A DNA stretch of 64,000 bases, from NCBI GenBank assembly GCA_026932235.1, contig JAIXKR010000134.1:1-64000 (forward strand), read 5' to 3'. The stretch is from Burkholderiales bacterium. GTDB taxonomy: Bacteria > Pseudomonadota > Gammaproteobacteria > Burkholderiales > Burkholderiaceae_C. The position numbers were made by a program, and so were the translations under genes. The number at the start of each line of letters is the position of its first letter. The stretch's first letter is position 1. The notes beneath the pieces are model-generated. The model made no database searches and was not told the origin of the DNA. It saw only the letters and a list, made by a program, of their open reading frames with translations. Shown piece by piece: positions 2,312 to 52,424 of the stretch.

Positions 2312-3577
2312 TCACAGCAGCGCGAGAGACAGCGCTGGAACGAAGGTGATGATCAGCGTGTCGACGATGAGCACGAACAAGAAGACCAGCAGCGGCCGGG
2401 TCATCGCGTCCATCGAGACGCCGGTGACCTGGCTAGCGATGTTGAGGTTGATGGCCACCGGCGGCGTGACCATGCCGATGGCGACGTTGACGATGAAGAT
2501 CATGCCGAAATGGATGGGATCGATGCCGTAGGACGCGGCGATCGGGCCCAGGATGGGCGCCAGGATCAGGATCGTGGCCAGGGCCTCCATGAAGGTGCCG
2601 ACGACGAACAGCAGCACGTTGACCATCAGCAGGAACATCACCGGGCCGCTGGCGACTTCCGCGATCAGGTGGCCGAAGTACTGCGGCAACTGGTTGATCG
2701 TGAGCGCGAAGCCGAACAGCGCGGCGAACCCCACGATCAGCATGACCATGCCCGTCATGACGGCCGATTCGCAGAAGATCTGCACGAACTCGCGCAGCCG
2801 CACTTCCTTGTAGATCAGCACACCGACGACGAAGCCGTAGACCACGGCGACGACCGACGCTTCCGTGGCGGTGAACACCCCCGTGTAGATGCCGCCCAGG
2901 ATGATCACGGGCATCATCAGCGCCAGCAGCGAATCGGCCGTGGCGCGCACCAGGTTGCGCAGCCACGTCCCGAAGGGCACGCGCTCGACGTGGTCGAAAT
3001 CCTTGACGCGCGCGTAGACGCACACGGCAACCACCAGCGACAGGCCGATGAACAGGCCCGGCAGGATGCCGGCGATGAACAGGCTGCCGATCGACACGTT
3101 GGCGACCAGGCCGTAGATCACCATCGGCAGCGACGGCGGAATGATGGCGCCGAGCTCGCCGCCCACGGCCACCAGTGCGGCGCCCGTGGGCTTGGGGTAG
3201 CCCTTGTTCTCCATCGCCGGCACCATGGTGCCGGCCACCGCGGCCGTCGTGGCCGACGAGGACCCCGACATCGTCGAGAAGAACATGCAGGTCAGGACCG
3301 AGGCGGCGCCCATGCCGCCGCGCAGCCAACCCACCAGCGCGGTGGCCAGCGCGATGAGCCGGCGCGAGATGCCGCCCGCCTTCATCAGGTTGCCCGCCAG
3401 GACATAGAACGGCACGGCCAGCAGGGCGAAGGAGTCCAGGGCCTCGAACACGTTCTGGGGCACCGCGATGAAGTCGGTGCCCTGCTGGTGCAGCAGGACC
3501 AGCGAGCAAATGCCCATCACCGCGAAGATGGGCACTGCCGCGGTCAGCAGGAAGACCATCGTCGAGAAGGTCAGCAC
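2312..3577 (-). CDS. dctM: TRAP transporter large permease subunit (DctM family)
   Basis: A 421-residue inner-membrane protein, the usual DctM length. It has a dozen or so hydrophobic segments and forms the sodium-driven transport channel with DctQ. Family signatures include the PFYVLAGNLMKAGGISRRL region near residue 55 and a second-half repeat with ILAPILGPIAASYGIDPIHFGMIFIVN, ending in a helix ALSLALL. It starts with GTG at 3577, preceded by GGAG. The gene sits 60 bases after dctQ and 44 bases before dctP, so the three are one transcription unit. Confidence 0.92.
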   Translation of the reverse strand: MLTFSTMVFLLTAAVPIFAVMGICSLVLLHQQGTDFIAVPQNVFEALDSFALLAVPFYVLAGNLMKAGGISRRLIALATALVGWLRGGMGAASVLTCMFFSTMSGSSSATTAAVAGTMVPAMENKGYPKPTGAALVAVGGELGAIIPPSLPMVIYGLVANVSIGSLFIAGILPGLFIGLSLVVAVCVYARVKDFDHVERVPFGTWLRNLVRATADSLLALMMPVIILGGIYTGVFTATEASVVAVVYGFVVGVLIYKEVRLREFVQIFCESAVMTGMVMLIVGFAALFGFALTINQLPQYFGHLIAEVASGPVMFLLMVNVLLFVVGTFMEALATILILAPILGPIAASYGIDPIHFGMIFIVNVAIGMVTPPVAINLNIASQVTGVSMDAMTRPLLVFLFVLIVDTLIITFVPALSLALL

Positions 3578-6906: not shown

Positions 6907-7605
6907 TCGCACCGGCCGCCGGCACCGGCGCCCACGGGCCGAAGGGAAGTCGCCGCCATGGTCGCGAGAGACCGACGAACCCGATGAACGCGCCCGCGAA
7001 CGACATTCGACGGCCCAGTTGTCCAGCCCCGCGCGGAGAACTGTTCAAGCCATGCGTCGAATGCCGGCGTTGGTCTGCTCGGGTGTGAGTGGCGCCGGAA
7101 AGAAGCGCATGCCCCCCCGGATCGACATTCATGGCCACGAAGGGCGCTCGGGCGATGGCTTTGCCAGACACGAAACGCGAGATGTGGGGTGTCGAGTTCG
7201 AGCAGTGGAGTTGCTGCGTCAGCTTGTGAGACTCAGCACGGAAGCTTGCGTGTGGCGAGCGCCTTCCACTGAAGAGCGGTTGCCGGCCGGGCCGGCACCG
7301 GTTGTGCTCCGGGCGCCCTGGATGCGCTTGCCGCCTCCCCACTCCTGGGGGGCCGGCTCGTCCCGGCCTGGTGGATCAGGCATCGGCTCGGCACCCGGCG
7401 CGCCTCCCCGGTGCCGGGAGAACTCCTTTTGCAGTAAGTACTTATCATTCAACCTCGGGCCGCGCGCGGCGGCCGCGGCCTGCCGGGCGCCCGTCGGTGA
7501 TCCGGAGCTACCCCGATCAGAGACCACTGGTACTGTAGGTATAGTCCACTGGTTTACGTGACGAGGCCGCGGGCGCTCACGAGGCACCCGCCCCGGACAA
7601 CGAGC
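6907..7605. other. Long intergenic region before the tonB operon
   Basis: About 700 bases without a recognisable gene. Open frames here are short and resemble nothing known. Near its right end it contains a 10-bp palindrome TAAGTACTTA (7435-7444) in a locally AT-rich patch, and a repeated CCACTGGT motif (7524-7553). It presumably holds the tonB promoter and its control sites. Confidence 0.55.
7524..7553 (+). promoter_or_regulatory. Direct repeat CCACTGGT x2 around a -10-like TATAGT
   Basis: CCACTGGT occurs at 7524-7531 and again at 7546-7553, 22 bases apart, about two helical turns. TATAGT (7540-7545) lies between them as a plausible -10 element about 60 bases before the tonB start. No good -35 is visible at 17 bases, which would fit an activated promoter. 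Which regulator binds is unknown. Confidence 0.35.
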
Positions 7606-8358
7606 ATGCGCCCGGCTCACACCGCCCCTGCGCAGCCGGAGGAACGACGCATCGTGGATTTCGCCCAGCAACAACGCCAACCCGGCAAGCACGTCGTGGG
7701 CATCGGCATCGTGATCGCGATGCACCTGCTGCTCGGCTGGGCGCTGGTCACGGGCCTGGCCCAGCGCATGGTCGAGGTGATCCGGGCGCCGATCGAGACC
7801 AAGATCATCGAGGAGGTGAAACCTCCGCCCCCACCTCCGCCCGAGAACCTGCCGCCGCCGCCGAAGTTCGCGCCGCCGCCGCCGTCCTTCGTGCCGCCGC
7901 CGGAGATACACGTGAACCCGCCGCCGACCCCGGCGCCGGTGATCACGACGACCACCGTCGCGCCGCCACCGGCGCCCGTGACGATCGCGCCGCCGCCGCC
8001 ACCGGCACCTCCCCCGCCGGCACCGCCAGCGCCCCCGCCGCCGCCGCCGCGTGTGGCCGCGCGCCCGGCCATTGCCAACGTGCAGGCCTGCGCGCCCACC
8101 GGCGACGACTACCCTGCCGCAGCCAGACGCGCCGAAGCCACCGGCACGACCAAGGTACGCTTCAACGTCGGCCCCGACGGCAAGCTCGCCGGCGCGCCCG
8201 AAGTCGTGCGCAGTTCGGGCCCCACGCGCGAGCACAAGATGCTCGACCGCATGGCCGTCTCCAAGCTCGGCGAGTGCCGCTTCACTGCCGGGCGCGACGA
8301 GCAGGGCAGGCCCGTCGGCGGATCGTTCGAGGTCGACTACGTCTGGAAGCTCGAATAG
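7606..8358 (+). CDS. tonB: TonB energy transducer
   Basis: A 250-residue envelope protein that carries proton-motive energy from ExbB/ExbD to outer-membrane receptors. One N-terminal membrane helix is visible (VVGIGIVIAMHLLLGWALV, about residues 30-48). A long proline-rich stretch of about 100 residues, made of PPPPPP and PPP-rich units, spans the periplasm. A C-terminal TonB domain carries YPAAARRAEATGTTKVRFNVGPDG and ends VDYVWKLE. The ATG at 7606 is preferred over 7558 because it leaves the normal short cytoplasmic tail; neither has a strong ribosome binding site. It is the first gene of tonB-exbB-exbD-exbD. Confidence 0.9.
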   Translation: MRPAHTAPAQPEERRIVDFAQQQRQPGKHVVGIGIVIAMHLLLGWALVTGLAQRMVEVIRAPIETKIIEEVKPPPPPPPENLPPPPKFAPPPPSFVPPPEIHVNPPPTPAPVITTTTVAPPPAPVTIAPPPPPAPPPPAPPAPPPPPPRVAARPAIANVQACAPTGDDYPAAARRAEATGTTKVRFNVGPDGKLAGAPEVVRSSGPTREHKMLDRMAVSKLGECRFTAGRDEQGRPVGGSFEVDYVWKLE

Positions 8359-8448
8359 CTTCGCGCGCCACTTCCGCTCTGCCCCATCGTCCCATTCACA
8401 GCGCCGCCGCCTCCCAGCTTCCAGCCGCGCCGTTCTCACGGAGTCAAC

Positions 8449-9309
8449 ATGTTCCCGTCCCACGCTCTTCGCGCCTCGCTCGGGGCCGCCCTGATCGCCG
8501 CCGCGGCCTTGCTCGGCAGCACCGGCCCGACCCCCGCTCTGGCGCAGGCTGCCTCGGAACCCGCCGCCGCGGAGCCGGCACCCGCGCCCGCACCGGAGCC
8601 CGTCGCAGCGCCTGCCGCAGACCCGGCGACCAACGCGGTGTCCGAGGAAGCGGTCGACAACCCCTACGGCCTGAAGGCGCTGTGGAACCAGGGCGACTGG
8701 GTCGCGCGCGGCACGCTGCTCATCATGCTCATCATGTCGATGGGGAGCTGGTACATCATCTTCACCAAGGTCTTCGAACAGCGCAGCATGCTCAAGAGCG
8801 CCGCCGCCGGCGCCGACGCCTTCTGGAAGGCCAGCTCCGTCAAGGCCGGCCTCTCGGCGCTGCAGGACGGCTCGGCCTTTCACTACATCGCGCAGGCCGG
8901 CATCAAGGCCAACGACCATCACGAAGGCACGATGGTCGAGAGCATCGACAAGCACACCTGGATCGCGATGAGCATCGACCGCGCCGCGGGCAGCGTGCAG
9001 AGCCGCCTCTCCGACGGCATGGCCTTCCTGGCCACGGTCGGCTCGACGGCGCCCTTCGTCGGCCTCTTCGGCACCGTCTGGGGGATCTACAACGCGCTCG
9101 TGAAGATCGGCATCAGCGGCCAGGCCTCGATCGACAAGGTCGCCGGCCCGGTGGGCGAGGCGCTCATCATGACGGCCATCGGCCTGGCCGTCGCGGTGCC
9201 CGCGGTGATGGGCTACAACTGGCTCATCCGCCGCAACAAGGCCGTGATGGACCGCGTCAAGTCCTTCGCCGGCGACCTGCACAACGTGCTGATCGCGGGC
9301 AAGCGCTGA
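8449..9309 (+). CDS. exbB: ExbB proton-channel protein (MotA/TolQ/ExbB family)
   Basis: A 286-residue inner-membrane protein. It has an N-terminal cleavable-looking signal (to about LAQA) followed by an Ala/Pro-rich linker, as in the long ExbB forms. Three membrane helices follow: near WVARGTLLIMLIMSMGSWYIIF, around FLATVGSTAPFVGLFGTVWGIY, and around EALIMTAIGLAVAVPAVMGYNWL. The TAPFVGLFGTVWGI and TAIGLAVAVPA segments are family hallmarks of the ion-conducting core. GGAG precedes the ATG. It lies between tonB and two exbD genes and is presumably co-transcribed with them. Confidence 0.93.
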   Translation: MFPSHALRASLGAALIAAAALLGSTGPTPALAQAASEPAAAEPAPAPAPEPVAAPAADPATNAVSEEAVDNPYGLKALWNQGDWVARGTLLIMLIMSMGSWYIIFTKVFEQRSMLKSAAAGADAFWKASSVKAGLSALQDGSAFHYIAQAGIKANDHHEGTMVESIDKHTWIAMSIDRAAGSVQSRLSDGMAFLATVGSTAPFVGLFGTVWGIYNALVKIGISGQASIDKVAGPVGEALIMTAIGLAVAVPAVMGYNWLIRRNKAVMDRVKSFAGDLHNVLIAGKR

Positions 9310-40509: not shown

Positions 40510-41454
40510 TCAGGAACGGAACGACCGTTCCCGATCGGCCGCCTCCCGAGCACGCGCAGCGTGGTAGTCCCCGCTTCCGCGCGTGATCAGCTCGTCGCTC
40601 GCCAGCACGTCGCCGGGTTCGTATTCTGGGCCCGATCGCAGGCGCTCGTAGATCGGCGCGAAGTCGATGCGCGCCAGCTCCAGCAGTTCCTCAAGACCGT
40701 CGACGACGAAGTAGCTCTCCTGGAAGTCGTCGATGCGATAGCGCGTGCGCATGACGCGCTCGAGATCGAAGCGGATGCGGTTGGGCGACGCGCTCTCGAG
40801 CGCGAACACGCTCTCGGTAGCCGAGGAGGCGATGCCGGCACCGTAGATGCGCAGGCCCTCGCGCTGGCGCAGCAGCCCGAATTCCACCGTGTACCAGTAG
40901 ACACGTGCAAGCTGCGGCAACCGGCCCAGGCCTTGCGCACGCAGGCCCCCTTCGCCGTAGGCCTGGATGTAGTCGGCGATCGCCGGGTTCATCAGCATCG
41001 GCACATGGCCGAAGACGTCGTGAAAGACGTCGGGCTCCTCGAGATAGTCGAGTTCGCTCGGCTTGCGGATGAAGTGACCGGCCGGAAACCGCCGCCTGGC
41101 CAGATGCTCGAAGAAGACCTCGTCGGGCACCAGCCCGGGAACCGCGACCACCTGCCAGCCGGTGCGTTTCATCAGCAAGTCCGACAGGCGCCTGAAATCG
41201 GGGATGTGCTCGGCGTCGATCGCGAGCTCGCCCATGCCCTGCACGAATTCGTCGCAGGCGCGCCCCGGCAACAGCCGCGACTGGCGCTCGAAAAGCGTCT
41301 TCCAGACGCCGTGCTCGGCTGCCGTATAGCGTTCCCAACCCTGGTCGATGGTCCAGTCGGCGCGATCGGGGCGCCCGCGATCCCCCGCGGCCAGGCCATG
41401 CTTGTCGCTGGCCGTCGCGGCTTGCGGCGCTTGCCGCTGGAGATGCTTGCGCAT
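40510..41454 (-). CDS. phhA: Phenylalanine 4-monooxygenase (hydroxylase)
   Basis: A 314-residue iron- and pterin-dependent enzyme converting phenylalanine to tyrosine. The iron ligands are visible as H145 and H150 in EEPDVFHDVFGHVP and E191 in YTVEFGLL. FFEHLARRRFPAGHFIRKPSELDYL and GAGIASSATESVFALES are family segments. It is a single-domain bacterial form without the regulatory ACT domain. It begins four bases after phhB, which recycles the pterin cofactor, so the two form one unit. Confidence 0.96.
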   Translation of the reverse strand: MRKHLQRQAPQAATASDKHGLAAGDRGRPDRADWTIDQGWERYTAAEHGVWKTLFERQSRLLPGRACDEFVQGMGELAIDAEHIPDFRRLSDLLMKRTGWQVVAVPGLVPDEVFFEHLARRRFPAGHFIRKPSELDYLEEPDVFHDVFGHVPMLMNPAIADYIQAYGEGGLRAQGLGRLPQLARVYWYTVEFGLLRQREGLRIYGAGIASSATESVFALESASPNRIRFDLERVMRTRYRIDDFQESYFVVDGLEELLELARIDFAPIYERLRSGPEYEPGDVLASDELITRGSGDYHAARAREAADRERSFRS

Positions 41455-41811: not shown

Positions 41812-42813
41812 TCATTGTGCCGAGCCGGTGGCGGCGCGGACGGCGATCGCTCTTGCCCTGGATTCCCGCAGGGTCGCCGATGGCGTCTGGCCGAAGAGGC
41901 GGCGATAGTCCCGCGCGAACTGCCCGAGGTGATTGAAGCCGCAGTCGATGGCGATCTCGGTGACGCGTGCCCCCGATCGCGCCGCCTCTTGCAGGCGCCG
42001 CCTCGCGCGGTTCAGGCGCATCAAGCGCAGGTAGGCCAAAGGCGCCAGCCCCGTGGCTTCGCGGAACGCGTACTGCAGGCTGCGGCGGCTGACGCCGAGC
42101 GCGCGGCACAGGCCGGCGACTGCGAGATCCGGATCATCGCCATCGAGCGCGATCTCGCAAGCCTTGCGCACGAGCTCGCGGCTGCGACACGGCTTCACGC
42201 CCTTGTCGCCGTGCGCCCCCGGGGCGGGACCCGCGGCAGCGAGTGCCTGCGTCACGAGCACGAGCGCCCGCTCGCGAATGCCGGCCTCGCCCAGGCGCGG
42301 CGCGGTCGGCACGAGCAGCAGTTGCAGCATCCGGCGCAGGCGCCGGTAGGCGGGCGGCGGCAGCGGCATCGAGGCACGCTCAGCCAGCGCCTGCGGCGAC
42401 AAGCCCGAGTCTGCCTCCCCGTGCTGTCGAAGCAGCTCGCGGCCGACGACGATGCCGAGGATGCCGAAGTCGCGCGGCGTTTGCAGCTCGAACTCCTGTC
42501 CGCCCGGGCGCAGCAGCACCGTGTGCTCGGGCACGGTGCGCGAATCGATGCGAAGCTCGCCGGTGAGCGCGCAGGGAACGCCCATCCAGACCGCATCGGG
42601 CCAGGCCGTGCACGACTGCCGCAACGCCTGGTTGGCCGACTCCTGGAAGATCTGCAGGCCGGGCAGGCGCAGCTCGGTGAGCCGGCCCTCGAAGCGCCCG
42701 GAGGAAAACTGGCTGTAGCGCTGCTCCCAGGCGCTGAGGTTGTGCGCGTGCTCGTCGGCGTCGTGCGCGACGCGCGTTCGGCGCAAGCCGCAGGACTCGT
42801 CGGAGTCGCGCAT
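41812..42813 (-). CDS. AraC-family transcriptional regulator, EutR-like C-terminus
   Basis: A 333-residue regulator with an N-terminal effector domain of about 200 residues. The C-terminal AraC domain (about 235-330) includes [40 protein letters not shown] and [29 protein letters not shown]. From memory, the SRR-LQ, APLA-LK/R-LRLN-RR and HLGQFA-DY-LF sequence closely follows EutR, the ethanolamine-operon activator. The gene lies 24 bases after a DeoR gene and 35 bases before phhB, all on one strand. It may control phhAB, or the amino-alcohol-like locus upstream, or both. Confidence 0.85.
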
Positions 42814-42837
42814 GGTCGGCGTCGGGCGGGCGGAGGC

Positions 42838-43602
42838 TCAGGCGAGGACCACCTCGCCGACGCTGGCCTTCAGGGCCTCGAAGCTCTCGACGGACTGCGC
42901 CTTGCGATCGCAGAAGAGCCGGTCGACGTCGCGCGCCGCGCAGTAGGTTTCGCGGCTCGAGGTTCCGAGTTTGCTGTGATCGGCCAGGATCCAGGTCTGG
43001 CGCGCGCCTTCGCACATGGCCCGTGCGATCGAGGCCTCGTCGCGCAGGAAGCTGGCCGCCCCTTCGCGCGCGTTGAAGGCCACCGGCGACAGCAGCGCGA
43101 CGTCGGCATGAAAGCGCCGCAACTGCAGGACGGTGGCAGCACCGGTGGTCGAGAAGAGTTCGCCGTTGAGCGTTCCGGTGAGGACGATGACCTGGTTCTC
43201 GCCGCCACGCACCGAGTCGACGAGGCACTGCGCGGCGCTGAGCGAATTGGTGATGAGCGTGATGCCGCCGAGGCGGGCGAGTTCGCGCGCAAGAATCGTC
43301 GTCGTGCTGCCGGCGTCCATGAAGACCGTGACCGGCGGCTGCAATGCCTGCGCCACCGCGCGCGCGATCGCCTTCTTGGCGGCGACGTGAATGGTGCTGC
43401 GCTTGTCCAGCGGCGGCTCGTCGCTGAGGTGGACGGCACCGCCATGCACGCGTTGCAACAGCCCCAGCGCCTCCAGCGCCAGGAAGTCGCGGCGCACCGT
43501 CTCGCGCGAGACACCCAGCTCCTGCATCGTCTCCTCGGTCGTCAGCTGGCCCTTGCGCTGCAGCAGCGTACGGATCCTCTGGTGACGCGCCTCGGACCAC
43601 AT
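42838..43602 (-). CDS. DeoR-family transcriptional regulator
   Basis: A 254-residue regulator. The N-terminal DeoR helix-turn-helix has RIRTLLQRKGQLTTEETMQELGVSRETVRRDFLALEALGLLQRVHGGAV (about residues 10-58). The C-terminal sugar-phosphate-binding DeoRC domain contains VFMDAGSTTTILARELARLGGITLITNS and LADHSKLGTSS. ATG 43602 is used. It starts just after the ABC permease stop at 43604, so the regulator is the last gene of the transporter operon. Members of this family usually sense phosphorylated metabolites, consistent with a phosphate-bearing cargo. Candidate sites lie at 47509-47540. Confidence 0.9.
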   Translation of the reverse strand: MWSEARHQRIRTLLQRKGQLTTEETMQELGVSRETVRRDFLALEALGLLQRVHGGAVHLSDEPPLDKRSTIHVAAKKAIARAVAQALQPPVTVFMDAGSTTTILARELARLGGITLITNSLSAAQCLVDSVRGGENQVIVLTGTLNGELFSTTGAATVLQLRRFHADVALLSPVAFNAREGAASFLRDEASIARAMCEGARQTWILADHSKLGTSSRETYCAARDVDRLFCDRKAQSVESFEALKASVGEVVLA

Positions 43603-43603
43603 C

Positions 43604-45301
43604 TCAGGCAAGGCCCTGGGCGAGGTTGGGGCGGAAGTAATGGACCAGACCGCGCATCGCCAGCATGGCGACGGATACGACCGCGATGATGATGGTCGAG
43701 AAGGCCGCGGCCTGGGAAACGAAGCCGTTCTCGTTCAGGTGCAGCACCGACACCGAGGCCACGTTGAGTTGCGGGGTGATGAGGAAGATCACCGCCGACA
43801 GCGTCACCATCGAGCGCATGAAGAGGAAGAAGAACACCGCCAGCACCGTGGGCGCGATGACGGGAAGGATGGCGTCGCCCATGACGTGGCGCACGCGCCC
43901 ACCCAGGCAGGCGGCGGCGTCCTCCAGGGCCTGGGGCACCATGCGCATGCCGGTCATCATCGTCAGGAAGCCCTGCGTGTGGTAGTGATAGAAGTTGCAC
44001 AGCGCGATCAGGATCGCGGTGCCGTACAGCCAGTGCAGCGGATAGGCCGGGTCGTTGAAGGCGAAGATGTAGGACAGGCCGAGCACCAGGCCCGGAACGC
44101 CCACGGGCAGCACGGCCAGCAGGTAGACGGCCTTGGCGATGCGGCCGTGGAGATTGCGCACCCCGTACGCGAGCATGAACAGCAGCACGACGCCGACGAC
44201 GGCTGCCGCGAGCGAGATGTAGAGCGTCGTCCAGATCGGCTGGTAGCCGCTCGAGATCTTGACCTTGAAGTTCGCCAGCGTGAGCGTCATGTTGTACGGC
44301 CAGAGCTTGATGAAGCTTGCCGCGACGACGACGACGACGACGGCGGCGATGGCGAACGCCGTCAGGTGCGCGATGAGACCGAGCCAGGTGTCACGCCAGC
44401 GCGCGCGCGACGGCTGCAGCGGGATGCGGTTCTCGGAGCCGCCGCCGAACTGCTTCTGCGAGGACACGCGCTCGATGTAGACCGAGACCAGCGCCGGCAG
44501 CAGCAGGATGATTCCCACCACCGACCCCATGCCGAAGTTCTGCTGCCCCGAGACCTGGTTGAAGATCTCGGTGGCGAGCACCTTGTAGTTGCCCGCGATC
44601 ACGGCCGCATTGCCGAAGTCGGTGATCGTGATCGTGAAGACGACGAAGGCCGCGCTCAACAAGCCGAACTTGCAGTTGGGCAGGGTGATGTGGAAGAACT
44701 GCTGGCGCGGTGTCGCCCCCATCACGGTCGCGGCGTCGTAGTAGCGCGCGTCGGCGTTGCGCAGCGCCGCCTGGATGATCATGATGGCCTGCGGCAGCGC
44801 GTAGAAGACGTTCGAGAACAGCAGCCCCCAGTAGCCATAGATGTCCTGCTCGATTCCCGTCCAGCGGAACACGAGGCCGTTGCGCCCGAGGAGGAACAGC
44901 AGCCCCAGTCCCTGCACCAGCGAGGGCGCGAGCATCGGCAGCAGCAGGCACAGGCGGATCCAGCCCTTGCCGGGTATGCGGCTGCGCTCCAGCGCGTAGG
45001 CCATCGGGAAACCCAGCAGCAGGCAGACCACCGTGGTGCTGACGCTGATGACGACGCTGTTGAGGCCTGCCGTGACCAGGCCCGGCGTGGACGGAATGGC
45101 GGCATAGTTGTCCAGCCCCATCGTGCCATCGAAGAGAACGAAGCTGTGCCAGAAGATCGTGAGCAGCGGGTAGCCGAAGAAGAGGATCAGCGCCAGCGTC
45201 GGCACGAAGACGCACACCCAGGTGAGCATCTGCTCCTGCGTGCGCGGCAGCGGCAGGCGCGGCGACCCTGGCCGCGACGGCAGAGCGTCGGTGGCGCTCA
45301 C
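43604..45301 (-). CDS. ABC transporter permease, two fused permease domains (2-aminoethylphosphonate/iron type)
   Basis: A 565-residue protein with two tandem permease units, each with the EAA-like loop that contacts the ATPase. These are DAATVMGATPRQQFFHITLPNCKFGL in the first half and DAAACLGGRVRHVMGDAILPVIAPTVLAVFF in the second. Such fused permeases occur in the class that includes putative 2-aminoethylphosphonate and ferric-iron importers. GTG 45301 is the start. It lies nine bases after the ATPase stop. It forms a complete importer with the ATPase and binding protein upstream. Confidence 0.9.
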   Translation of the reverse strand: MSATDALPSRPGSPRLPLPRTQEQMLTWVCVFVPTLALILFFGYPLLTIFWHSFVLFDGTMGLDNYAAIPSTPGLVTAGLNSVVISVSTTVVCLLLGFPMAYALERSRIPGKGWIRLCLLLPMLAPSLVQGLGLLFLLGRNGLVFRWTGIEQDIYGYWGLLFSNVFYALPQAIMIIQAALRNADARYYDAATVMGATPRQQFFHITLPNCKFGLLSAAFVVFTITITDFGNAAVIAGNYKVLATEIFNQVSGQQNFGMGSVVGIILLLPALVSVYIERVSSQKQFGGGSENRIPLQPSRARWRDTWLGLIAHLTAFAIAAVVVVVVAASFIKLWPYNMTLTLANFKVKISSGYQPIWTTLYISLAAAVVGVVLLFMLAYGVRNLHGRIAKAVYLLAVLPVGVPGLVLGLSYIFAFNDPAYPLHWLYGTAILIALCNFYHYHTQGFLTMMTGMRMVPQALEDAAACLGGRVRHVMGDAILPVIAPTVLAVFFFLFMRSMVTLSAVIFLITPQLNVASVSVLHLNENGFVSQAAAFSTIIIAVVSVAMLAMRGLVHYFRPNLAQGLA

Positions 45302-45310
45302 ATCCAGCTC

Positions 45311-46324
45311 CTAGGCCGCGACCCAGCAGCTCTGACGGGCGTCGATCACGGGCTGGATGCGCTCACCCTCGACGCTCGCGGCGGCCGCCGTCTGCTCGAC
45401 CACGAGTTCGCGCTTCCCCCAGTGCAGCCGCGCCCGGCACAGGTTGCCGAGGAAGGTCACCGCGCCGACGGTGGCCGCGCCGTCGGCGCGCGACTCGAGG
45501 CGGATGTTCTCGGGCCGCACGCAAAGCAGCCAGCGTGAGCCGTCGCCCGCGGGCGGCGGCGCCTCGCTCAGCGTCTGCGGCGAGAACTCGCGCAGCCAGT
45601 CCATCGGCAGCAGGTTGCTCAGGCCGATGAAGTCGGCGACGAAGGACGTCGCGGGCCGGTCGTAGAGGACCTGCGGCGAGCCCACCTGCTCGATGCTGCC
45701 GTTGTTCATGCACACGATGGTGTCGGCCAGCATCAAGGCCTCCTCCTGGTCGTGCGTGACCATGATGGTCGGAATCCTGAGCCGCCGCTGCACGTCGCGG
45801 ATCTCCTGGCGCATCTCGTTGCGCACGCGTGCATCCAGCGCCGAGAGCGGTTCGTCGAGCAGGATCAGGCGCGGGCTGACGGCGAGCGCGCGCGCCAGCG
45901 CGACGCGCTGCTGCTGTCCGCCCGAGAGCTGCCACGGAAAGCGCTCGGCCATGTCGGGGATGCGGATGAGCCGGAGAAGCTCATCGACGCGCGCGGCAAC
46001 GCGGTCCGCCGGCGTCTTGCGGATGCGCAGGCCGTAGCCGATGTTCTCGCGCACCGTCATGTTCGGGAACAGCGAGTACGACTGGAAGACGATGCCGAAG
46101 TTGCGCAGGCGCGGCGGCATGCGGCCGAGGTCCTGCCCGTCGAAGCTGAGGGTGCCGGCATCGGCCTGCAAAAGCCCCGCGATGATCCGCAGCAGCGTCG
46201 TCTTGCCGCAGCCGCTGGGGCCCAGCAGGCAGACGAAGTCGTGCGCCCCGACGCTCAGGTTGATGTCGTCGAGTGCCTTGTAGTCGCCGAATGACTTCCG
46301 TACGTGTGCGAGCTCCAGACTCAT
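45311..46324 (-). CDS. ABC transporter ATP-binding protein (2-aminoethylphosphonate/iron/polyamine type)
   Basis: A 337-residue ATPase. Walker A GPSGCGKTT is at residues 35-43. The signature LSGGQQQRVALARALA lies near 134, Walker B LILLDEPLSALDARV near 155, and the switch histidine in VTHDQEEALMLAD near 187. A C-terminal TOBE-like regulatory domain (about 250-337) is present, as in PotA/FbpC-like importers. It energises the fused permease encoded downstream. A strong hairpin lies between it and the binding-protein gene upstream. Confidence 0.93.
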   Translation of the reverse strand: MSLELAHVRKSFGDYKALDDINLSVGAHDFVCLLGPSGCGKTTLLRIIAGLLQADAGTLSFDGQDLGRMPPRLRNFGIVFQSYSLFPNMTVRENIGYGLRIRKTPADRVAARVDELLRLIRIPDMAERFPWQLSGGQQQRVALARALAVSPRLILLDEPLSALDARVRNEMRQEIRDVQRRLRIPTIMVTHDQEEALMLADTIVCMNNGSIEQVGSPQVLYDRPATSFVADFIGLSNLLPMDWLREFSPQTLSEAPPPAGDGSRWLLCVRPENIRLESRADGAATVGAVTFLGNLCRARLHWGKRELVVEQTAAAASVEGERIQPVIDARQSCWVAA

Positions 46325-46352
46325 GCAGTCTCCGGTGCGGCGCGGTGGATGA

Positions 46353-46377
46353 AGGGCGTCGCTTGGCGCGACGCCCT
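46353..46377 (-). terminator. 9-bp stem-loop between binding-protein and ATPase genes
   Basis: AGGGCGTCG (46353-46361) and CGACGCCCT (46369-46377) form a perfect stem with a 7-base loop in the 57-base gap. No T-run follows on the minus strand. Such stems often stabilise the upstream message or partly stop transcription, making binding protein in excess over the membrane parts. Confidence 0.5.
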
Positions 46378-46381
46378 GGAT

Positions 46382-47398
46382 TCAGCGTGCCGTGACCTGC
46401 TGCCAGGTCTTGAGCGTGGCGTCGCGTCCGGCCGCGGACTTCTCGAAGTCGATCGGGAACAGCACCTTGTCGACGTCGTTCGGCAGACCCGCCTTGAGCA
46501 GGCGATCGGCGGGCTTGATTCCCGGGATGGTGACGATCTCCTTGTACTTCCTGTAGAGCGCGGCGGCCTCGGATGAAAGCGTCCAGTCGAGGAAGCGCTT
46601 GGCGTCTTCCGGGTTCTTCGCGGTCTTCAGAATGCCCGAAGCCTCCAGCTCATAGCCCTCCCAGTCGGATGGGATCACCATCTTGACGGGAAAGCCTTCC
46701 TCGATCGACTGCATCGCCGGGAAGGCGAAGGAGGCGCCGATCGCGTACTCGCCGGTGCGCGCCATCTTGCACGGCTTGGAGCCGGAACTGGTGTACTGCG
46801 CGACGTTCTTGTTCATCGCCTTGATGAGGTCCCAGCCCTTGTCCTGGCCCAGGCCCTGGAGGATGGCCGCGATCTGCAGCCAGCCGGTGCCCGAGGCCGC
46901 GGGGTTGGGCATCACCACCTCGCCCTTGTAGACCGGCTTGGTGAGGTCTTCCCAACTCGCCGGCATGGGCAGGTTGCGGGCCTTGAGGCGGTCGGCGTTG
47001 ACGCAGAAGGCGGCCATGTAGCCGGTGGCGGCGAACCAGGTGCCGTCCTTGCTGCGGTACTTGGGCGAGAGCTCGCCCGCGGCCTTGGGCTCCCACTTCG
47101 TCAGCGCGCCGTGGATGCGCGGATCGAGCATGTTGGTGACTGCGAAGCCCCAGACGACGTCGGTCCGCGGGTTGTTCATCTCGGCCAGCAGCCGTGCGGC
47201 CATGTCGCCGGTGGAAAGCCGCAGGACGTGGAAATCCACATCCGGCATGGCCTTCTTCGCCGCGGCCATGTATTCGCTGACCTCGTCGTCCTCGAGCGCC
47301 GTGTAGATGGTCAGCGATTTGGCATGCGCCACCTGGAACAGGCCGACACCGGCAAGTACCAGTGCTGCCGCCAAAGCCTTCTGGATCGGACGTTTCAT
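46382..47398 (-). CDS. ABC transporter periplasmic binding protein (2-aminoethylphosphonate/iron class)
   Basis: A 338-residue receptor with a signal peptide MKRPIQKALAAALVLAGV..AHA (cut before KSLTIYTALED). The LTIYTALEDDEVSEYM start, DVVWGFAVTNMLDPR, and GEVVMPNPAASGTGWLQIAAILQGLGQDKGWDLI are typical of the PhnS-like, Fe-binding-protein class. The usual iron-binding tyrosine pair is not evident, so an organic ligand is more likely. It is the first gene of an operon with ATPase, fused permease and DeoR regulator. The ligand is not proven; 2-aminoethylphosphonate or an isostere such as phosphoethanolamine is a reasonable guess. Confidence 0.87.
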   Translation of the reverse strand: MKRPIQKALAAALVLAGVGLFQVAHAKSLTIYTALEDDEVSEYMAAAKKAMPDVDFHVLRLSTGDMAARLLAEMNNPRTDVVWGFAVTNMLDPRIHGALTKWEPKAAGELSPKYRSKDGTWFAATGYMAAFCVNADRLKARNLPMPASWEDLTKPVYKGEVVMPNPAASGTGWLQIAAILQGLGQDKGWDLIKAMNKNVAQYTSSGSKPCKMARTGEYAIGASFAFPAMQSIEEGFPVKMVIPSDWEGYELEASGILKTAKNPEDAKRFLDWTLSSEAAALYRKYKEIVTIPGIKPADRLLKAGLPNDVDKVLFPIDFEKSAAGRDATLKTWQQVTAR

Positions 47399-47508
47399 GC
47401 TTGTCTCCTGCTGTGGGTGGAAGAGCCCGTCTGCTGCCGGCCGGGCGCCCTGCACGCGCGCCGAGGCCGCTGCAGCCACGCCGCGCGAACCTGCTGCGCG
47501 ACGCCGTG

Positions 47509-47556
47509 TTTGTGATTTTGTGGAGATTTGCAAATTTGTGCAAGACTGTCCAGAAT
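47509..47556. promoter_or_regulatory. Divergent control region with TTTGTG repeats and palindrome
   Basis: Three direct TTTGTG repeats (47509-47514, 47517-47522, 47535-47540) and a perfect palindrome ATTTGCAAAT (47526-47535) lie between the binding-protein gene and the phosphatase gene. For the phosphatase, TTGCAA (47528-47533), 17 bases and CAGAAT (47551-47556) give a weak sigma-70-like promoter. The region is markedly AT-richer than its surroundings. The DeoR regulator is the likely binder. Confidence 0.5.
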
Positions 47557-47586
47557 CGCATCGATCCCCGCGTCCAGGAGAGAACC

Positions 47587-48381
47587 ATGCCCGCAGCAGT
47601 CGTCGCGCCGCCTTGGACGGACGAGGTGCTCGACTTCGCACAAGACCTGATGGGACAGGCGCGCTCGATCGCACTGCGCTGGTTCCGACATCGCCCGACG
47701 GTCGAAACGAAGGCCGATGCCAGCCCCGTCACCGTCGCCGATCGCGAGGTCGAGCAGTTCCTGCGCGCCGCGATCCGCGACCGCTATCCCGAGCACGGCC
47801 TGCTCGGGGAGGAATTCGGCACGCGCAACGCCGATGCCGAGGTGCTGTGGTGCATCGATCCCATCGACGGCACGCGCAGCTTCGTCTCCGGCAGTCCCCT
47901 GTGGGGCTGCCTGCTGGCGGTGCTGCACCGCGGCCGGCCCCTGCTCGGCCTCGTCGAAGTGCCGTGCACGCGCGAGCGCTGGGTCGGCATCGCCGGGCGC
48001 GGCGCCTGGCTCAATGGCGAGCGCTGCCGCACGCGGACCGTGCAGCGTCTCGAGGACGCGATCCTCTACGCCACCTCGCCCGACCTCTTCAGCGAAGAGG
48101 ACCGGCGCGGTTTCGAGCGCCTCAGCGCCGGCGTCCAGATGCGTCGCTTCGGCGGCGACTGCTACACCTACGCCCTGCTGGCCAGCGGCATGATCGACGT
48201 CGTCGCCGAGTGCAATCTCCAGCCCTACGACTACATGGCCCTGGTGCCCGTGGTGCACGAGGCCGGCGGCGTGATGACCGACTGGGAGGGCCGGGCGCTC
48301 GACACCTCCTCCGATGGCCGCGTCGTCGCCGCCGCCAACCACACCCTTCATCGCCTGGCGCTGCAGCAGTTGGCCGCATGA
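47587..48381 (+). CDS. Inositol-monophosphatase-family phosphatase (HisN/histidinol-phosphatase-like)
   Basis: A 264-residue Mg-dependent phosphatase. Metal motifs are GEEFG (E75 and E76 region) and DPIDGTRSF (D91, D94, G95, T96), with GGDCYTYALLASGMIDVVAECNLQPYDYMALVPVVHEAGG near the end supplying the third aspartate. This pattern matches HisN-type histidinol phosphatases within the family. AGGAG precedes the ATG. It is divergent from the ABC importer and convergent with an alcohol dehydrogenase. In this context it may remove phosphate from the imported compound rather than act in histidine synthesis. That is inference. Confidence 0.88.
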   Translation: MPAAVVAPPWTDEVLDFAQDLMGQARSIALRWFRHRPTVETKADASPVTVADREVEQFLRAAIRDRYPEHGLLGEEFGTRNADAEVLWCIDPIDGTRSFVSGSPLWGCLLAVLHRGRPLLGLVEVPCTRERWVGIAGRGAWLNGERCRTRTVQRLEDAILYATSPDLFSEEDRRGFERLSAGVQMRRFGGDCYTYALLASGMIDVVAECNLQPYDYMALVPVVHEAGGVMTDWEGRALDTSSDGRVVAAANHTLHRLALQQLAA

Positions 48382-48416
48382 CGCCAGGGCGCGCTGGCGC
48401 GGTGGCGCGGCCGTCG

Positions 48417-49583
48417 TCAGAGCGTACCGGCCAGCGCGTGCTGCAACAGCGTGTCGTACTGCTGCGCGCTCAAGGGTATCGGGTTGGTCGCGGCCGAGCC
48501 GTCCTGCACCGCCATGGCCCCGACGCGCCCGACGGCGTCGGACGGGATGCCGATCTCGGCGAGCGTGTGCGGCAGGCCGACCGCCTCGCGCAGCGCGAGC
48601 ACCCAATCGAGCACGGCGGCGAAGCCCGGATCGGGCAAACCCAGGTAGCGCGCGAGCAGTTCCGACTTTCCGCCGATCGCCGCTTCGTTGGCCTTCAGCA
48701 CGTAAGGCATGAGAATCGCGATCAGCGTGCCGTGGTGCTGGTCGTAGAGCGCCCCCAGCGGATGCGCCAGCGCATGCATCGCGCCCAGGCCCTTCTGGAA
48801 AGCGGTCGCCCCCATGCTGGACGCAACCAGCATCTGGCCTCGCGCCTCGAGATCGCGGCCGTCTCGCACCGCGCGCACGAGATGCGCGTGCACGAGGCGG
48901 CAAGCCTCCATCGCGATGCCCATCGCCATCGGGTGATAGACGGGCGAGCACAGGGCCTCGAGGTTGTGCGAGAGCGCATCGACACCGGTCGCCGCGGTCA
49001 GGCGCGGCGGCAGGTCCAGCGTCAGTTCCGGGTCCAGGATCACGATCGCGGGCAGCATGCGCGCATGGAAGATGATGCGCTTGACCTGCGCGGCCTCATC
49101 GACGATGACGGAGGCGCGGCCGACTTCGGAGCCGGTGCCCGCAGTGGTCGGCACGGCGACGACGGGCGCCATGCCGCGCACATCGACGCGCGAATGGTTG
49201 TCGCCGACGTCCTCGAAGTCCCACAGCGGGCGCGACTGCCCGGTCATCAGCGCGATGGCCTTGCCGGCATCCAGCGCCGATCCACCACCCAGGGCGATCA
49301 CGCCATCATGGCCGCCGGCGTGGAACGCAGCGACACCGTCCTCCACGTTGCGGCCGCTGGGGTTGCCCTTGACCTGCGCGAACAGGCCGCACGGCACGCC
49401 GGCGTCCTTGCAGACCTGCAGTGCGCCGGTCACGATCGGAAGAGCGGCGATCCCGGGGTCGGTCACCAGCAGCGGCCGACTCATGCCCAGCGCACGGCAG
49501 TGCTCGGGCAGTTCGCGCACGCGTCCGGCGCCGAACTTGACGGAGGTCGGATAGTTCCAGTTCGCAGCGGTCATCGCAGTCAT
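48417..49583 (-). CDS. Iron-containing (group III) alcohol dehydrogenase
   Basis: A 388-residue Fe-dependent dehydrogenase. The NAD-binding GGGSALDAGKA segment (residues 99-109) is present, as are VPTTAGTGSE (144-153) and the metal ligands D202 and H206 in GVDALSHNLEA plus H270 and H284 in GAMHALAHPLGALYDQHHG. It oxidises alcohol to aldehyde or the reverse. It is the last gene of a GS-like, ALDH, ADH operon; the gap to the ALDH gene is 12 bases. Next to a gamma-glutamylating enzyme it could oxidise the hydroxyl group of a gamma-glutamyl amino alcohol. Confidence 0.92.
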   Translation of the reverse strand: MTAMTAANWNYPTSVKFGAGRVRELPEHCRALGMSRPLLVTDPGIAALPIVTGALQVCKDAGVPCGLFAQVKGNPSGRNVEDGVAAFHAGGHDGVIALGGGSALDAGKAIALMTGQSRPLWDFEDVGDNHSRVDVRGMAPVVAVPTTAGTGSEVGRASVIVDEAAQVKRIIFHARMLPAIVILDPELTLDLPPRLTAATGVDALSHNLEALCSPVYHPMAMGIAMEACRLVHAHLVRAVRDGRDLEARGQMLVASSMGATAFQKGLGAMHALAHPLGALYDQHHGTLIAILMPYVLKANEAAIGGKSELLARYLGLPDPGFAAVLDWVLALREAVGLPHTLAEIGIPSDAVGRVGAMAVQDGSAATNPIPLSAQQYDTLLQHALAGTL

Positions 49584-49595
49584 GGCGACGGGTTC

Positions 49596-50990
49596 CTAGG
49601 GCAGGCGGAAGTGGTAGGACTTGGCGCGGGTCAGCGCCTGGTAGCCGAGGATGGACAGCGAGATGCCGTGCCCGGTGTTCTTCACCCCCGTCCAGGCCAG
49701 CGCCGGATCGAGGTAGTCGCAGCGGTTCATGAAGACGGTGCCGGTCTGCAGCTCGCGCCCGAGGCGCCGTGCCGCCTGCACGTCGCGCGTGAAGAGCGCC
49801 GCCGTGAGGCCATAGCGGCTGTCGTTCATCAGCGCCAACGCCTGTTCATCGGAATCGACGGGCATGACGCCCACGACGGGCCCGAAGCACTCCTCGTTCA
49901 TGACCGGCATGGCGTGGCTGACCTCGGTGAGGAGGCTGGGCGCCAGGTAGGGCGTTCCCTCCCGCGCCTCGGGGAAGCGGCGCAGGTCCACCAGGTTGCG
50001 CGCTCCCGCAGCGACCGAGGCGGCGACGATCCGGCGCACCTCGTCGGCCGCACGCGCGCGCACCACCGGACCGAGGCTGGTCTGCGGATCGAGCGGGTTG
50101 CCCAGGCGGTACTGCTCGGTGAGCGCCACGGCCCGGTCGACGAATTCCTTGTAGATCGGGCGATCGACGTAAATCCGCTGGATGCCGCAGCACGACTGCC
50201 CGGCGTTGAAGAAGGCCCCGTCGACCAGCGACTCCACCGCATGGGCGAGGTCGGCGTCGGCGCGCACGTAGGCCGGGTCGTTGCCGCCAAGCTCCAGCCC
50301 GCGACCGATGAAGCGACCCGCGGCCGCGTGTTCGACCGCTGCACCGCCGCGAACCGAGCCCGTGAACGCCACGTGGTCGATCTCCGGCGAGCGGATCAAG
50401 CCCTCGATCGTCTCGTGCGAGGCGTGAATGAACTGGAACAGGCCCGGCGGCAGGCCGGCCGCGGAGAAGGCGCCGACGAGTTCCTCCGCGCAAAGCGGCG
50501 TCTGCTCGGAATGCTTGAGGATGACCGCGTTGCCGGCGGCCAGTGCCGGAACGATGCTGTTCACGGCCGTGAGCAGCGGGTAGTTCCAGGGCGCGATCGT
50601 GAGTACCGTGCCGACCGGCTCGCGCTCGATGGCGCGCTCGAAGCCCGGCTTCTCGGGCACACCGATGGCCTGCAGGGCCTCGGGTGCGATCGCCAGCATG
50701 TGGCGGCCGCGCTCGGCGAAGCCCTTGAGTTCGCCCGGGGACTGGCTGATCGGCCGGCCCATCTGGCGCGTGATGTCGCGGGCGAAGGTCTCGCCGCGCT
50801 GGACCACCACATCGATCGCGGCGCCGAGGATCCGCACGCGCTCCTCCAGCGCGCGGCGCGCCCATGCGCGTTGCGCCTCCCGCGCCGTGCGCGCCAGGCG
50901 CTGCGCATCGGCCGCGCTGGCGTGTGGCCGGCGGACGATGACCCGAGCATCGATCGGGCTGATGGTGACGAGTTCGTTCATGGATTGCAT
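49596..50990 (-). CDS. NAD(P)-dependent aldehyde dehydrogenase
   Basis: A 464-residue ALDH. Cofactor loop APWNYPLL (residues 133-140), FTGSVRGG (209-216), the base E233 in LELGGNDPAYV and the nucleophile C267 in NAGQSCCG are present. The C-terminal LDPALAWTGVKNTGHGISLSILGYQALTRAKSYHF pattern is typical of the succinate-semialdehyde/lactaldehyde-like branch. It is placed between the GS-like ligase (57 bases) and the Fe-ADH (12 bases). This order suggests it takes the aldehyde from the ADH to an acid. ATG 50981 is an alternative start. Confidence 0.92.
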   Translation of the reverse strand: MQSMNELVTISPIDARVIVRRPHASAADAQRLARTAREAQRAWARRALEERVRILGAAIDVVVQRGETFARDITRQMGRPISQSPGELKGFAERGRHMLAIAPEALQAIGVPEKPGFERAIEREPVGTVLTIAPWNYPLLTAVNSIVPALAAGNAVILKHSEQTPLCAEELVGAFSAAGLPPGLFQFIHASHETIEGLIRSPEIDHVAFTGSVRGGAAVEHAAAGRFIGRGLELGGNDPAYVRADADLAHAVESLVDGAFFNAGQSCCGIQRIYVDRPIYKEFVDRAVALTEQYRLGNPLDPQTSLGPVVRARAADEVRRIVAASVAAGARNLVDLRRFPEAREGTPYLAPSLLTEVSHAMPVMNEECFGPVVGVMPVDSDEQALALMNDSRYGLTAALFTRDVQAARRLGRELQTGTVFMNRCDYLDPALAWTGVKNTGHGISLSILGYQALTRAKSYHFRLP

Positions 50991-51047
50991 CCTCGGCCGG
51001 CAGGCGCAGCGCGGCTGCCCAAGCGCGCAGAGTGGGTCATCGCGGCC

Positions 51048-52424
51048 TCACATGCGCTCGAAGCAGCGGAAGCGCTCCCAGTCGGTGACAGCCGCCTCGA
51101 AGGCGTCGATCTCCACCTGAGCCATGTTGAGGTAGTGGTCGATGACCTCCCCGCCGAAGGCCTCGCGTGCCATCGCGGAATCGCGCAGCAGCGCCTGGGC
51201 TTCGTACATGTTGCGCGGCACGCGCGGCTTGTCGGACGCATAGGCGTTGCCCGGAAATGCGTCCTCGAGCTCGAGACCGCGATCGATTCCGTGCAGGCCC
51301 GCGGCGATCATCGCCGCGATCGCGAGGTAGGGGTTGGCGTCCCCACCCGGAACGCGGTTCTCCACGCGCAGCGACGCGCCGTGGCCGACGACACGCAGGG
51401 CACAGGTGCGGTTGTCGCGGCCCCAGGCCACCGCGGTGGGCGCGAAGCTGCCCTTGGCAAAGCGCTTGTAGGAGTTGATGTTGGGGGCGAAGAAGAGCGT
51501 CGACTCCCGCATGCAAGCCAGTTGCCCGGCGAGGAAGCGACGAAACAGCACTGAAGTGCCCCCCGGCCCGTCACCGGCAAAGACGGCGCCGCCGTCGGCG
51601 TCGCGCAGGCTGAGGTGGATGTGGCACGAACTGCCTTCGCGTTCGTTGAACTTGGGCATGAAGGTGAGCGCATAGCCCTCCTGCGCGGCGATCTCCTTGG
51701 CACCGTTCTTGTAGATCGCGTGCTCGTCCGCGGCACGCAGCGCCGGCCCGTAGCTGAAGTTGATCTCGTGCTGCCCGAAATTGCACTCGCCCTTGGAGTT
51801 CTCGAGCACCAGCCCGGCGCCGACCATGCTGTTGCGGATGCGCGCCAGCAGCGGCTCCAGGCGCCCCGTGTCCAGCAGCGCGTAGTCGACGTTGTATAGG
51901 GTCGCCGGCTCGAGGTCGCGATAGGCCTTGTGCCAGGCCTGCTCGTAGGTGTCGCGGAAGACGATGAACTCGAGCTCGGTGGCGGCGTAGGGCAGCAGGC
52001 CGCGTTCGGCCAGGCGTGCGATCTGGCGACGCAGGACCTGGCGCGGCGCGACGTTCACCGGCGATCCATCGCTGCTCTCGAGGTCGCACATCACCAGGGC
52101 CGTACCTTGCAGCCACGGAATGCGTCGCAGCGTGGCCAGGTCGGGCGCGAAGACGAAGTCGCCGTAGCCGCGCTCCCACGAGGTGAGCGCGTAGCCGCCC
52201 ACCGTGTTCATCTCGATGTCGACCGCGAGCTGGTAGCTGCAGCCCTCGGCCTTGTGCGCGAGCACGGTTTCCAGGAAGAAGCTTGCCGCGAGCCGCTTGC
52301 CCTGCAGGCGCCCCTGCATGTCCGTCATCGCGATCACCACCGTGTGGATGGCGCCCGAGGCGACTTCGGCCCTCAGCTGGGCCAGGGTCAACGGGCCCTC
52401 CGTGTGCTGCGCCTGTCCGTGCAT
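51048..52424 (-). CDS. Glutamine-synthetase-like gamma-glutamyl ligase (PuuA/GlnA4 type)
   Basis: A 458-residue GS-fold ligase that joins glutamate to an amine using ATP. Metal-site glutamates are in YAATELEFIVF (E150, E152) and KGECNFGQHEINF (E213, E220). HIHLSL holds H268 and H270, and RVENRVPGGDANPYLA carries the late Arg/Glu. Length, the absence of the GlnA adenylylation tail and the distance from any nitrogen-regulation genes favour a PuuA/GlnA4-like gamma-glutamyl-polyamine or gamma-glutamyl-ethanolamide synthetase over true glutamine synthetase. It is the first gene of an operon with ALDH and Fe-ADH. GlnA4 acts on ethanolamine in Streptomyces. Confidence 0.88.
   Translation of the reverse strand: MHGQAQHTEGPLTLAQLRAEVASGAIHTVVIAMTDMQGRLQGKRLAASFFLETVLAHKAEGCSYQLAVDIEMNTVGGYALTSWERGYGDFVFAPDLATLRRIPWLQGTALVMCDLESSDGSPVNVAPRQVLRRQIARLAERGLLPYAATELEFIVFRDTYEQAWHKAYRDLEPATLYNVDYALLDTGRLEPLLARIRNSMVGAGLVLENSKGECNFGQHEINFSYGPALRAADEHAIYKNGAKEIAAQEGYALTFMPKFNEREGSSCHIHLSLRDADGGAVFAGDGPGGTSVLFRRFLAGQLACMRESTLFFAPNINSYKRFAKGSFAPTAVAWGRDNRTCALRVVGHGASLRVENRVPGGDANPYLAIAAMIAAGLHGIDRGLELEDAFPGNAYASDKPRVPRNMYEAQALLRDSAMAREAFGGEVIDHYLNMAQVEIDAFEAAVTDWERFRCFERM

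Follow-up and report, generated by a model that had tools for sequence, protein, structure and literature searches.

A putative phosphoethanolamine-scavenging locus in a Burkholderiales bacterium, with an importer–phosphatase front end and exchangeable ethanolamine back ends

In this study, we analyzed 64,000 nucleotides of a Burkholderiales bacterium (GenBank assembly GCA_026932235.1, contig JAIXKR010000134.1, positions 1 to 64,000; hereafter the window), which make up 64.0 kb of a 68.1-kb contig in a 3.86-Mb genome (G000) that is 81% complete and 5.8% contaminated. The genes at 41812–52424 most likely form a phosphoethanolamine-scavenging locus, through which the compound would be taken up intact, dephosphorylated inside the cell and fed into a known glutamylation route. 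We also consider it probable that the importer is dedicated to intact phosphoethanolamine: it belongs to a separate clade that is filed under 2-aminoethylphosphonate (AEP) importers, is accompanied by a phosphatase that is filed as a histidinol-phosphatase, would be controlled by a substrate-sensing DeoR protein, and is combined with exchangeable back ends (two ligase types, EutBC or a phospho-lyase) across the Alpha-, Beta- and Gammaproteobacteria. Gene content, conserved linkage, the swapping of downstream enzymes and the residues of the binding site are the direct observations on which this proposal is built.

In the proposed scheme, an ATP-binding cassette (ABC) importer would bind phosphoethanolamine and bring it in intact, and a HisN-family enzyme would strip the phosphate in the cytoplasm, releasing ethanolamine and phosphate. 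A glutamine-synthetase-like ligase would then convert ethanolamine to gamma-glutamylethanolamide, whose hydroxyl group would be oxidized by an iron-containing alcohol dehydrogenase (ADH) and an aldehyde dehydrogenase (ALDH) to give gamma-glutamylglycine, and an unlinked hydrolase would split this product into glycine and glutamate. All substrates, the order of the reactions, the ligands of both regulators and the hydrolase are what we infer.

The importer operon lies on the minus strand and consists of the genes for a periplasmic binding protein, the putative phosphoethanolamine binder (about 46382–47398), a PhnT2-like ATPase (45311–46324), a fused PhnU2-like permease (43604–45301), a DeoR/GlpR-family regulator (42838–43611; Pfam DeoRC and HTH_DeoR) and, as its final gene, an EutR-like AraC-type regulator (41812–42813; Pfam HTH_18), with intergenic distances of about 57, 9, −8 and 24 bp. 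The gene for an inositol-monophosphatase (IMPase)-family phosphatase, annotated HisN (about 47587–48381), lies on the plus strand; it starts about 190 bp from the binding-protein gene and is transcribed divergently from it. The importer and the phosphatase therefore have a common divergent promoter region. A second minus-strand operon, convergent towards the phosphatase gene, carries the ligase (51048–52424; Pfam Gln-synt_C), the ALDH (49596–50990; Pfam Aldedh; a putative gamma-glutamylacetaldehyde dehydrogenase) and the ADH (48417–49583; Pfam Fe-ADH; a putative gamma-glutamylethanolamide dehydrogenase), spaced 57 and 12 bp apart. Every gene that the first-pass annotation of this DNA had named was recovered in place by gene calls and family searches.

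We scanned 84,980 species genomes with a profile of a two-sequence binding-protein alignment alone, and only afterwards located homologues of the remaining window genes, and of extra neighbors, at the best 80 of 152 relatives, to which the counts of loci given here refer. A HisN homologue was found in 71 of the 80 loci, a DeoR homologue in 72, a gamma-glutamyl ligase in 29, and EutB together with EutC in 11, while AraC homologues (38–42% identity) were confined to three (L046–L048). The grouping of an importer and a phosphatase with the ligase pathway, which had initially seemed unusual, is thus a recurrent one. The ligase is of the window type in three loci (L049, L051 and L109) and of a second type, 31–35% identical to that of the window, in the other 26. 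Achromobacter accounts for 16 of these 29 loci, which are not independent; the remainder are from three Alcaligenaceae (one of them Allopusillimonas), Paralcaligenes, Pandoraea, one assembly each of Rhodoferax, Rubrivivax, SZAS, Rhizobiales and Hyphomonadaceae, two Ferrovibrio assemblies and Roseovarius. The EutBC loci belong to Azospirillum, Acidovorax, Bradyrhizobium, Azoarcus and a Moraxellaceae assembly, and Pfam scans confirmed EutB in all three and EutC in both of the proteins scanned. Measured between alignment ends, HisN and the ligase are co-directional and 36–115 bp apart in 22 loci, and HisN and EutB are co-directional and 70–73 bp apart in three Azospirillum loci; in L059, the gaps between gene ends along HisN, ligase, ALDH and ADH are 60, 19 and 27 bp.

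A third back end was found in Corticibacter populi, where a class-III enzyme dependent on pyridoxal 5'-phosphate (PLP) is encoded divergently from the binding protein (L081:8385–9818). Among solved structures, it most closely matches human ethanolamine-phosphate phospho-lyase (1.1e-108) and a bacterial phospholyase (1.3e-100), followed by a match at 4.9e-53. It scores 200 bits, below the cut-off of 525, against the model of PbfA, a phosphonate enzyme that also belongs to this class (PMC8154272). No HisN was found near the importer at this locus, and HisN-type matches in the Corticibacter genome do not exceed 32%. A homologue of ethanolamine-phosphate phospho-lyase (6tor, 5g4i) thus replaces the phosphatase beside this type of importer; such an enzyme is not found in the window, and its chemistry, direct elimination, differs from hydrolysis followed by glutamylation. 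We regard this locus as the most pointed clue that phosphoethanolamine, rather than ethanolamine, may be the imported molecule. A match of L046 to a phospho-lyase-type query, at 26% identity and about 8 kb from the importer, was not counted. Relatives of one importer are therefore found beside unrelated enzymes whose common substrate is (phospho)ethanolamine, which points to phosphoethanolamine as the transported substrate. The core idea of the first-pass annotation, that phosphoethanolamine is imported, dephosphorylated, ligated to glutamate and oxidized twice, is thereby supported at the level of gene neighborhoods, in which the importer relatives adjoin three chemically different (phospho)ethanolamine enzyme sets.

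The binding protein itself is consistent with a phosphorylated ligand. By sequence, the solved proteins closest to it are AfuA, VcA0625 (8x1a) and P5PA, and the folds closest to its predicted model (mean predicted local distance difference test score 90.1, from a 28-row alignment; helices beginning at residues 63 and 170) are VcA0625 and AfuA (with glucose 6-phosphate, with fructose 6-phosphate, and empty), then P5PA, then 4r6y, annotated as a putative AEP-binding protein, and then iron binders; the nearest folds of the model are those of binders of glucose 6-phosphate, fructose 6-phosphate and PLP. The phosphate-holding residues of AfuA and P5PA were taken from PMC4546632 and PMC8427247, and residues were mapped by hand from the printed alignment. 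The phosphate clamp is kept: Ser37, Ser148-Gly149-Thr150 and Gly185 of AfuA correspond to T63, S169-G170-T171 and S205-G206, with threonine at the Ser37 position as in P5PA, and T63, S169, G170, S205 and G206 are present in 81 of 81 rows and T171 in 79. The sugar-binding residues of AfuA are mostly lost, one of three being retained (His205, Asp206 and Glu229 correspond to F226, P227 and E250). An importer of hexose phosphates resembling AfuABC, as AfuA and VcA0625, its closest solved neighbors in both sequence and fold, would suggest, is scarcely credible here, since the His-Asp pair of AfuA is replaced, position 226 being phenylalanine or tyrosine in 81 of 81 rows and position 227 alanine, threonine, proline or valine. 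The H-D motif sits instead in the other copy that this genome encodes, an AfuA-like binding protein with its own permease and ATPase (G000:C142:42922–43821, recorded as L010 and L035). The window importer thus shares with AfuABC and the P5PA importers the fold, the phosphate clamp and, as proposed, the uptake of an intact phosphomonoester, and differs from them in lacking two of the three sugar residues and in having E252 where AfuA, 8x1a and P5PA have glycine. E252 is glutamate in all 28 rows, and E36 is also glutamate in this alignment, both being common to two AEP-type proteins (L030 and L031); we propose E36 and E252 as candidate contacts of the ammonium group. The loci were picked by the peptide patterns YTALE[DE][DE]E and [MI]AAA[KS]KAM, so that the conservation of residues 32–39, including E36, is partly by construction, while T63, S169–T171, S205–G206, F226, E250 and E252 lie outside these patterns and L030 and L031 were found without them. 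As a separate observation, AfuA-like binding proteins in L033 and L034 lie near a HisN/IMPase homologue of 31–34% identity, and the coupling of an importer with an IMPase-family phosphatase may be a general phosphomonoester pairing.

AEP and phosphoethanolamine are near isosteres, and the best family models for all three importer proteins are PhnS2, PhnT2 and PhnU2. The importer had been placed in the AEP class; its relationship to that class holds, but it is not an accepted member, since the binding protein (TIGR03261, 335.0 bits, cut-off 392.75), the ATPase (TIGR03265, 409.9 bits, cut-off 457.7) and the permease (TIGR03262, 497.6 bits, cut-off 593.25) all score below the NCBIfam cut-offs. 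If it nevertheless took up AEP or a hydroxy derivative, the ethanolamine genes would be adjacent by chance, a reading that we hold to be decidedly unlikely. E36 and E252 would suit it, as would PhnW-like matches below the cut-off in four window-type genomes (207–310 bits; G421, G422, G245 and G265), the top value of 310 bits being in an Achromobacter. Against it, window-like binding proteins (the window, L077, L081 and L109) score 327–335 bits with the PhnS2 model, whereas L030 and L031 reach 529 and 496, and L030 adjoins PbfA. Among the three kinds of binding protein, AfuA-like (L032–L035, with the H-D motif), AEP-like (L030 and L031) and window-like, the window-like rows form one clade (support 97) apart from the AEP-like pair (99) in a quick tree with the Shimodaira–Hasegawa-like approximate likelihood ratio test as the sole support measure. 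PhnW scores above its cut-off in two of 51 window-type genomes (G239 and G268), as compared with both AEP-type controls, and the best match in the genome of the window reaches 87.9 bits against a cut-off of 400.8, although PhnW is not the sole AEP route and the genome is incomplete. Furthermore, neither a phosphatase nor EutBC nor a phospho-lyase, the enzymes that adjoin these importers, is expected to cleave a C–P bond. Overall, the window importer resembles the PhnS2T2U2 AEP importers of NCBIfam in protein family, fused permease and the two acidic residues shared with AEP-type proteins, and differs from them in its sub-cut-off scores, its separate clade and the lack of any recognized phosphonate gene nearby. 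AepX and AepS (PMC8316502) also share Pfam PF13343 with the window binding protein.

The nearest solved chains of the window ligase are 11zs and 5dm3, the latter of which we take to be a Chromohalobacter protein. The ligase, ADH and ALDH stand in one cluster, as the ethanolamine gamma-glutamylation pathway requires, and are 47–52% identical to the set in Roseovarius (L109), where the importer and phosphatase lie beside an eto-like cluster comprising an FGase-family hydrolase, a tripartite ATP-independent periplasmic (TRAP) transporter protein DctM, the ligase, ALDH and ADH. The window ligase is 47% identical to that of L109, 69% to that of L049 and 85% to that of L051; L049 and L051 are also the nearest relatives of the window binding protein on the tree. 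ADH homologues beside importers are 69–76% identical to that of the window in Burkholderiales loci and 51–61% in alphaproteobacterial ones, none being found at the L049 locus, and ALDH homologues are 62–76% identical in L049 and the Burkholderiales ligase loci and 52–59% in alphaproteobacterial ones; Rhodoferax (L075) is an outlier at 41% for ADH and 36% for ALDH. The two ligase types, which in most loci share 31–34% identity, are therefore accompanied by similar dehydrogenases (62–76% in Burkholderiales except L075), which suggests one product. EutB has no match in the genome of the window, to the extent that its 81% completeness allows.

This ligase–ADH–ALDH part, initially thought to be an undescribed route, has already been described in Phaeobacter (PMC10132767) and proposed for Streptomyces, around GlnA4, and Chromohalobacter (PMC6529630). 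As set out in the former, the Phaeobacter eto cluster, whose gene make-up is matched by that of L109, comprises an ethanolamine gamma-glutamylase, two dehydrogenases, a gamma-glutamylglycine amidohydrolase and a TRAP transporter, which are present in higher amounts on phosphoethanolamine, and Chromohalobacter and Agrobacterium are cited for a closely related pathway. The ligase, ADH, ALDH and proposed reaction order are common to these systems and the window, with a short-chain dehydrogenase in Streptomyces. However, the Phaeobacter cluster imports free ethanolamine, whereas in the window the pathway is headed by an importer and a phosphatase, and a nearby hydrolase was not found. PMC10132767 also reports that the extracellular phosphatase PhoX contributes to headgroup cleavage in Phaeobacter, that EtoX binds ethanolamine and not phosphoethanolamine, and that mutants lacking PhoX or PhoB still grow on phosphoethanolamine; import of the intact headgroup was left to be determined in that 2023 study. 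Its Tables 1 and 2 also list MED193_11439, annotated GlpR, which rises on phosphoethanolamine and whose locus number is close to those of a phosphorus-stress-induced PotA/PotD-type transporter (11419 and 11424), possibly another headgroup importer. Among the papers listed in our searches of a collection of mostly openly accessible articles without preprints, judged largely by title and the start of the abstract, none reported a bacterial phosphoethanolamine importer. We suggest that the new part of the window locus is its front end, that is, the importer, the DeoR protein and the divergent phosphatase. It would represent a modification of an established transporter family, set apart by the new substrate proposed here and by the interchangeable back ends that it feeds. 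Two further loci bear on such combinations: L048 contains a TRAP large permease (L048:1145–2461; 65% identity to its counterpart in the Roseovarius eto-like cluster) within the importer locus, and free ethanolamine and phosphoethanolamine uptake may be clustered there, and in L039 (G060:C176) a ligase–ALDH–ADH module lies beside a different ABC transporter (ATPase 46% and permease 21% identical to those of the window).

The regulators would fit this arrangement. The DeoR protein probably acts as a substrate sensor and as a repressor at the promoter region from which importer and phosphatase diverge, and the AraC protein, which scores 194.9 bits against a cut-off of 319 with the EutR model NF007522, probably responds to ethanolamine. 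Between the divergent binding-protein and phosphatase genes, we found a chain of four repeat units (47507–47544), a possible operator, and similar repeats lie upstream of the binding-protein gene in several relatives. Three or four units occur in 10 of 81 upstream regions, as compared with none of 1620 shuffled sequences, and fewer than three in the other 71; as the units were chosen after the sequences had been seen and the shuffles preserved single-base content only, this motif test is only suggestive. A promoter scan of 46300–48500 gave no promoter and one terminator-like site, which did not exceed shuffled sequences.

Several observations weigh against a phosphoethanolamine-scavenging locus. 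No such repeat was seen ahead of the ligase gene in the window, and the two operons may therefore answer to different signals; the phospho-lyase clue comes from a single locus; HisN was not found in nine of the 80 loci (L049, L051, L077, L080, L081, L084, L086, L087 and L094); the window contains no hydrolase match of the FGase or M81 type, in agreement with the first-pass annotation, which had listed a gamma-glutamyl hydrolase as missing; and the genome of the window, 81% complete, shows no HisB-type histidinol phosphatase domain, so its HisN may serve histidine synthesis. A local ethanolamine route is lacking at 39 of the 80 importer loci. We searched the genomes of 38 of these 39 loci (all except L101), and in favor of the proposal 36 of them hold a route elsewhere: 25 encode an eto-type ligase that shares at least 59% identity with the L109 enzyme, six more a second-type ligase with at least 59% identity to the L059 enzyme, and five more EutB, the same five having no ligase match at 1e-60. 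On the other side, the genomes of L093 and L107 showed no route of the kinds sought. The background is mixed: a ligase match at 1e-60 occurs in 19 of 229 genomes of the class to which the window belongs, but 92 of the 149 genomes in the L114 family encode the eto-type ligase, as do four of the five that have a window-type binding protein (at least 53% identical to that of L114); the ligase is therefore common there without enrichment, and co-occurrence in that family proves nothing. In G014, both modules are present on different contigs.

These loci without a local route, together with G014 and the separate directions of transcription of the two units in the window, would also fit two independent units, namely an importer–phosphatase pair that handles a different phosphomonoester, next to an ordinary operon for ethanolamine. 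We consider this very unlikely, since HisN lies within 115 bp of a co-directional ligase or EutB in 25 loci (16 of them the non-independent Achromobacter loci), a given gene would be expected by chance within 10 kb in well under 1% of loci for genomes of 4–8 Mb, as against 11 of 80 for EutBC, and the binding-protein tree requires at least five switches of downstream route across the 42 rows that have one locally.

The phosphatase could alternatively be a plain histidinol-phosphatase of histidine synthesis that stands apart from the pathway. It scores 281.8 bits, above the cut-off of 275.15, with TIGR02067, which the L059 relative, the sole one scanned, also passes, and the incomplete genome, in addition to lacking a HisB-type domain, has no other HisN-type gene above 32%. 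This alternative is nevertheless unlikely given the linkage of HisN to the importer and its closeness, in the same direction, to the ligase or EutB; moreover, histidinol phosphate is a substituted phosphoethanolamine, one active site could suit both, and the window enzyme may do both jobs. Of the nine loci without HisN, six (L077, L080, L084, L086, L087 and L094) are in genomes that encode a 43–46% identical homologue elsewhere; HisN has no match in the L049 genome and matches of 32% at best in those of L051 and L081. The L049 and L051 contigs end close to the importer, the former beginning 0.9 kb before the binding protein and the latter ending with the permease. In L049, an open reading frame directly after the ALDH gene on the opposite strand (L049:7500–8051) reads by eye as a candidate haloacid dehalogenase-type phosphatase.

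For the last step of the proposed scavenging pathway, an M81/MlrC-family metallopeptidase gene adjoins the ADH gene in L046 (about 7600–9050), L047 (7596–9053), L048, L052 and L053 (3304–4758); this peptidase, and the FGase-family protein in L109, are candidate gamma-glutamylglycine hydrolases in those genomes. The genome of the window carries one M81 gene on another contig (FGase was sought in the window only). At 35% identity to the clustered M81 of L047, it was rejected as the missing hydrolase because it is too distant from the clustered enzymes. M81 genes are numerous in the two Achromobacter genomes searched, with 5 and 12 matches.

The neighboring genes scanned are unrelated to the locus: nadB, the gene for phenylalanine 4-hydroxylase (40510–41454), and ccmI, ccmH and ccmF from 52580 onward. 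An Rfam search of 36000–58000 gave no match. Near the start of the contig, the window also encodes a TRAP large permease (2312–3574; 24% identical to DctM of L109) and a PuuC-like aldehyde dehydrogenase (5425–6903), for which no link to the locus was seen.

Phosphatidylethanolamine is a principal bacterial phospholipid (PMC6529630), and phosphoethanolamine, a headgroup common among membrane lipids, should therefore be widely available as a carbon, nitrogen and phosphorus source. The locus offers candidate genes for uptake of the intact headgroup in culturable genera, including Azospirillum, Acidovorax, Bradyrhizobium and Roseovarius, among others. If our proposal is true, some of the genes that are now named aminoethylphosphonate transporter or histidinol-phosphatase would be misnamed, and estimates of phosphonate use derived from metagenomes would be affected.

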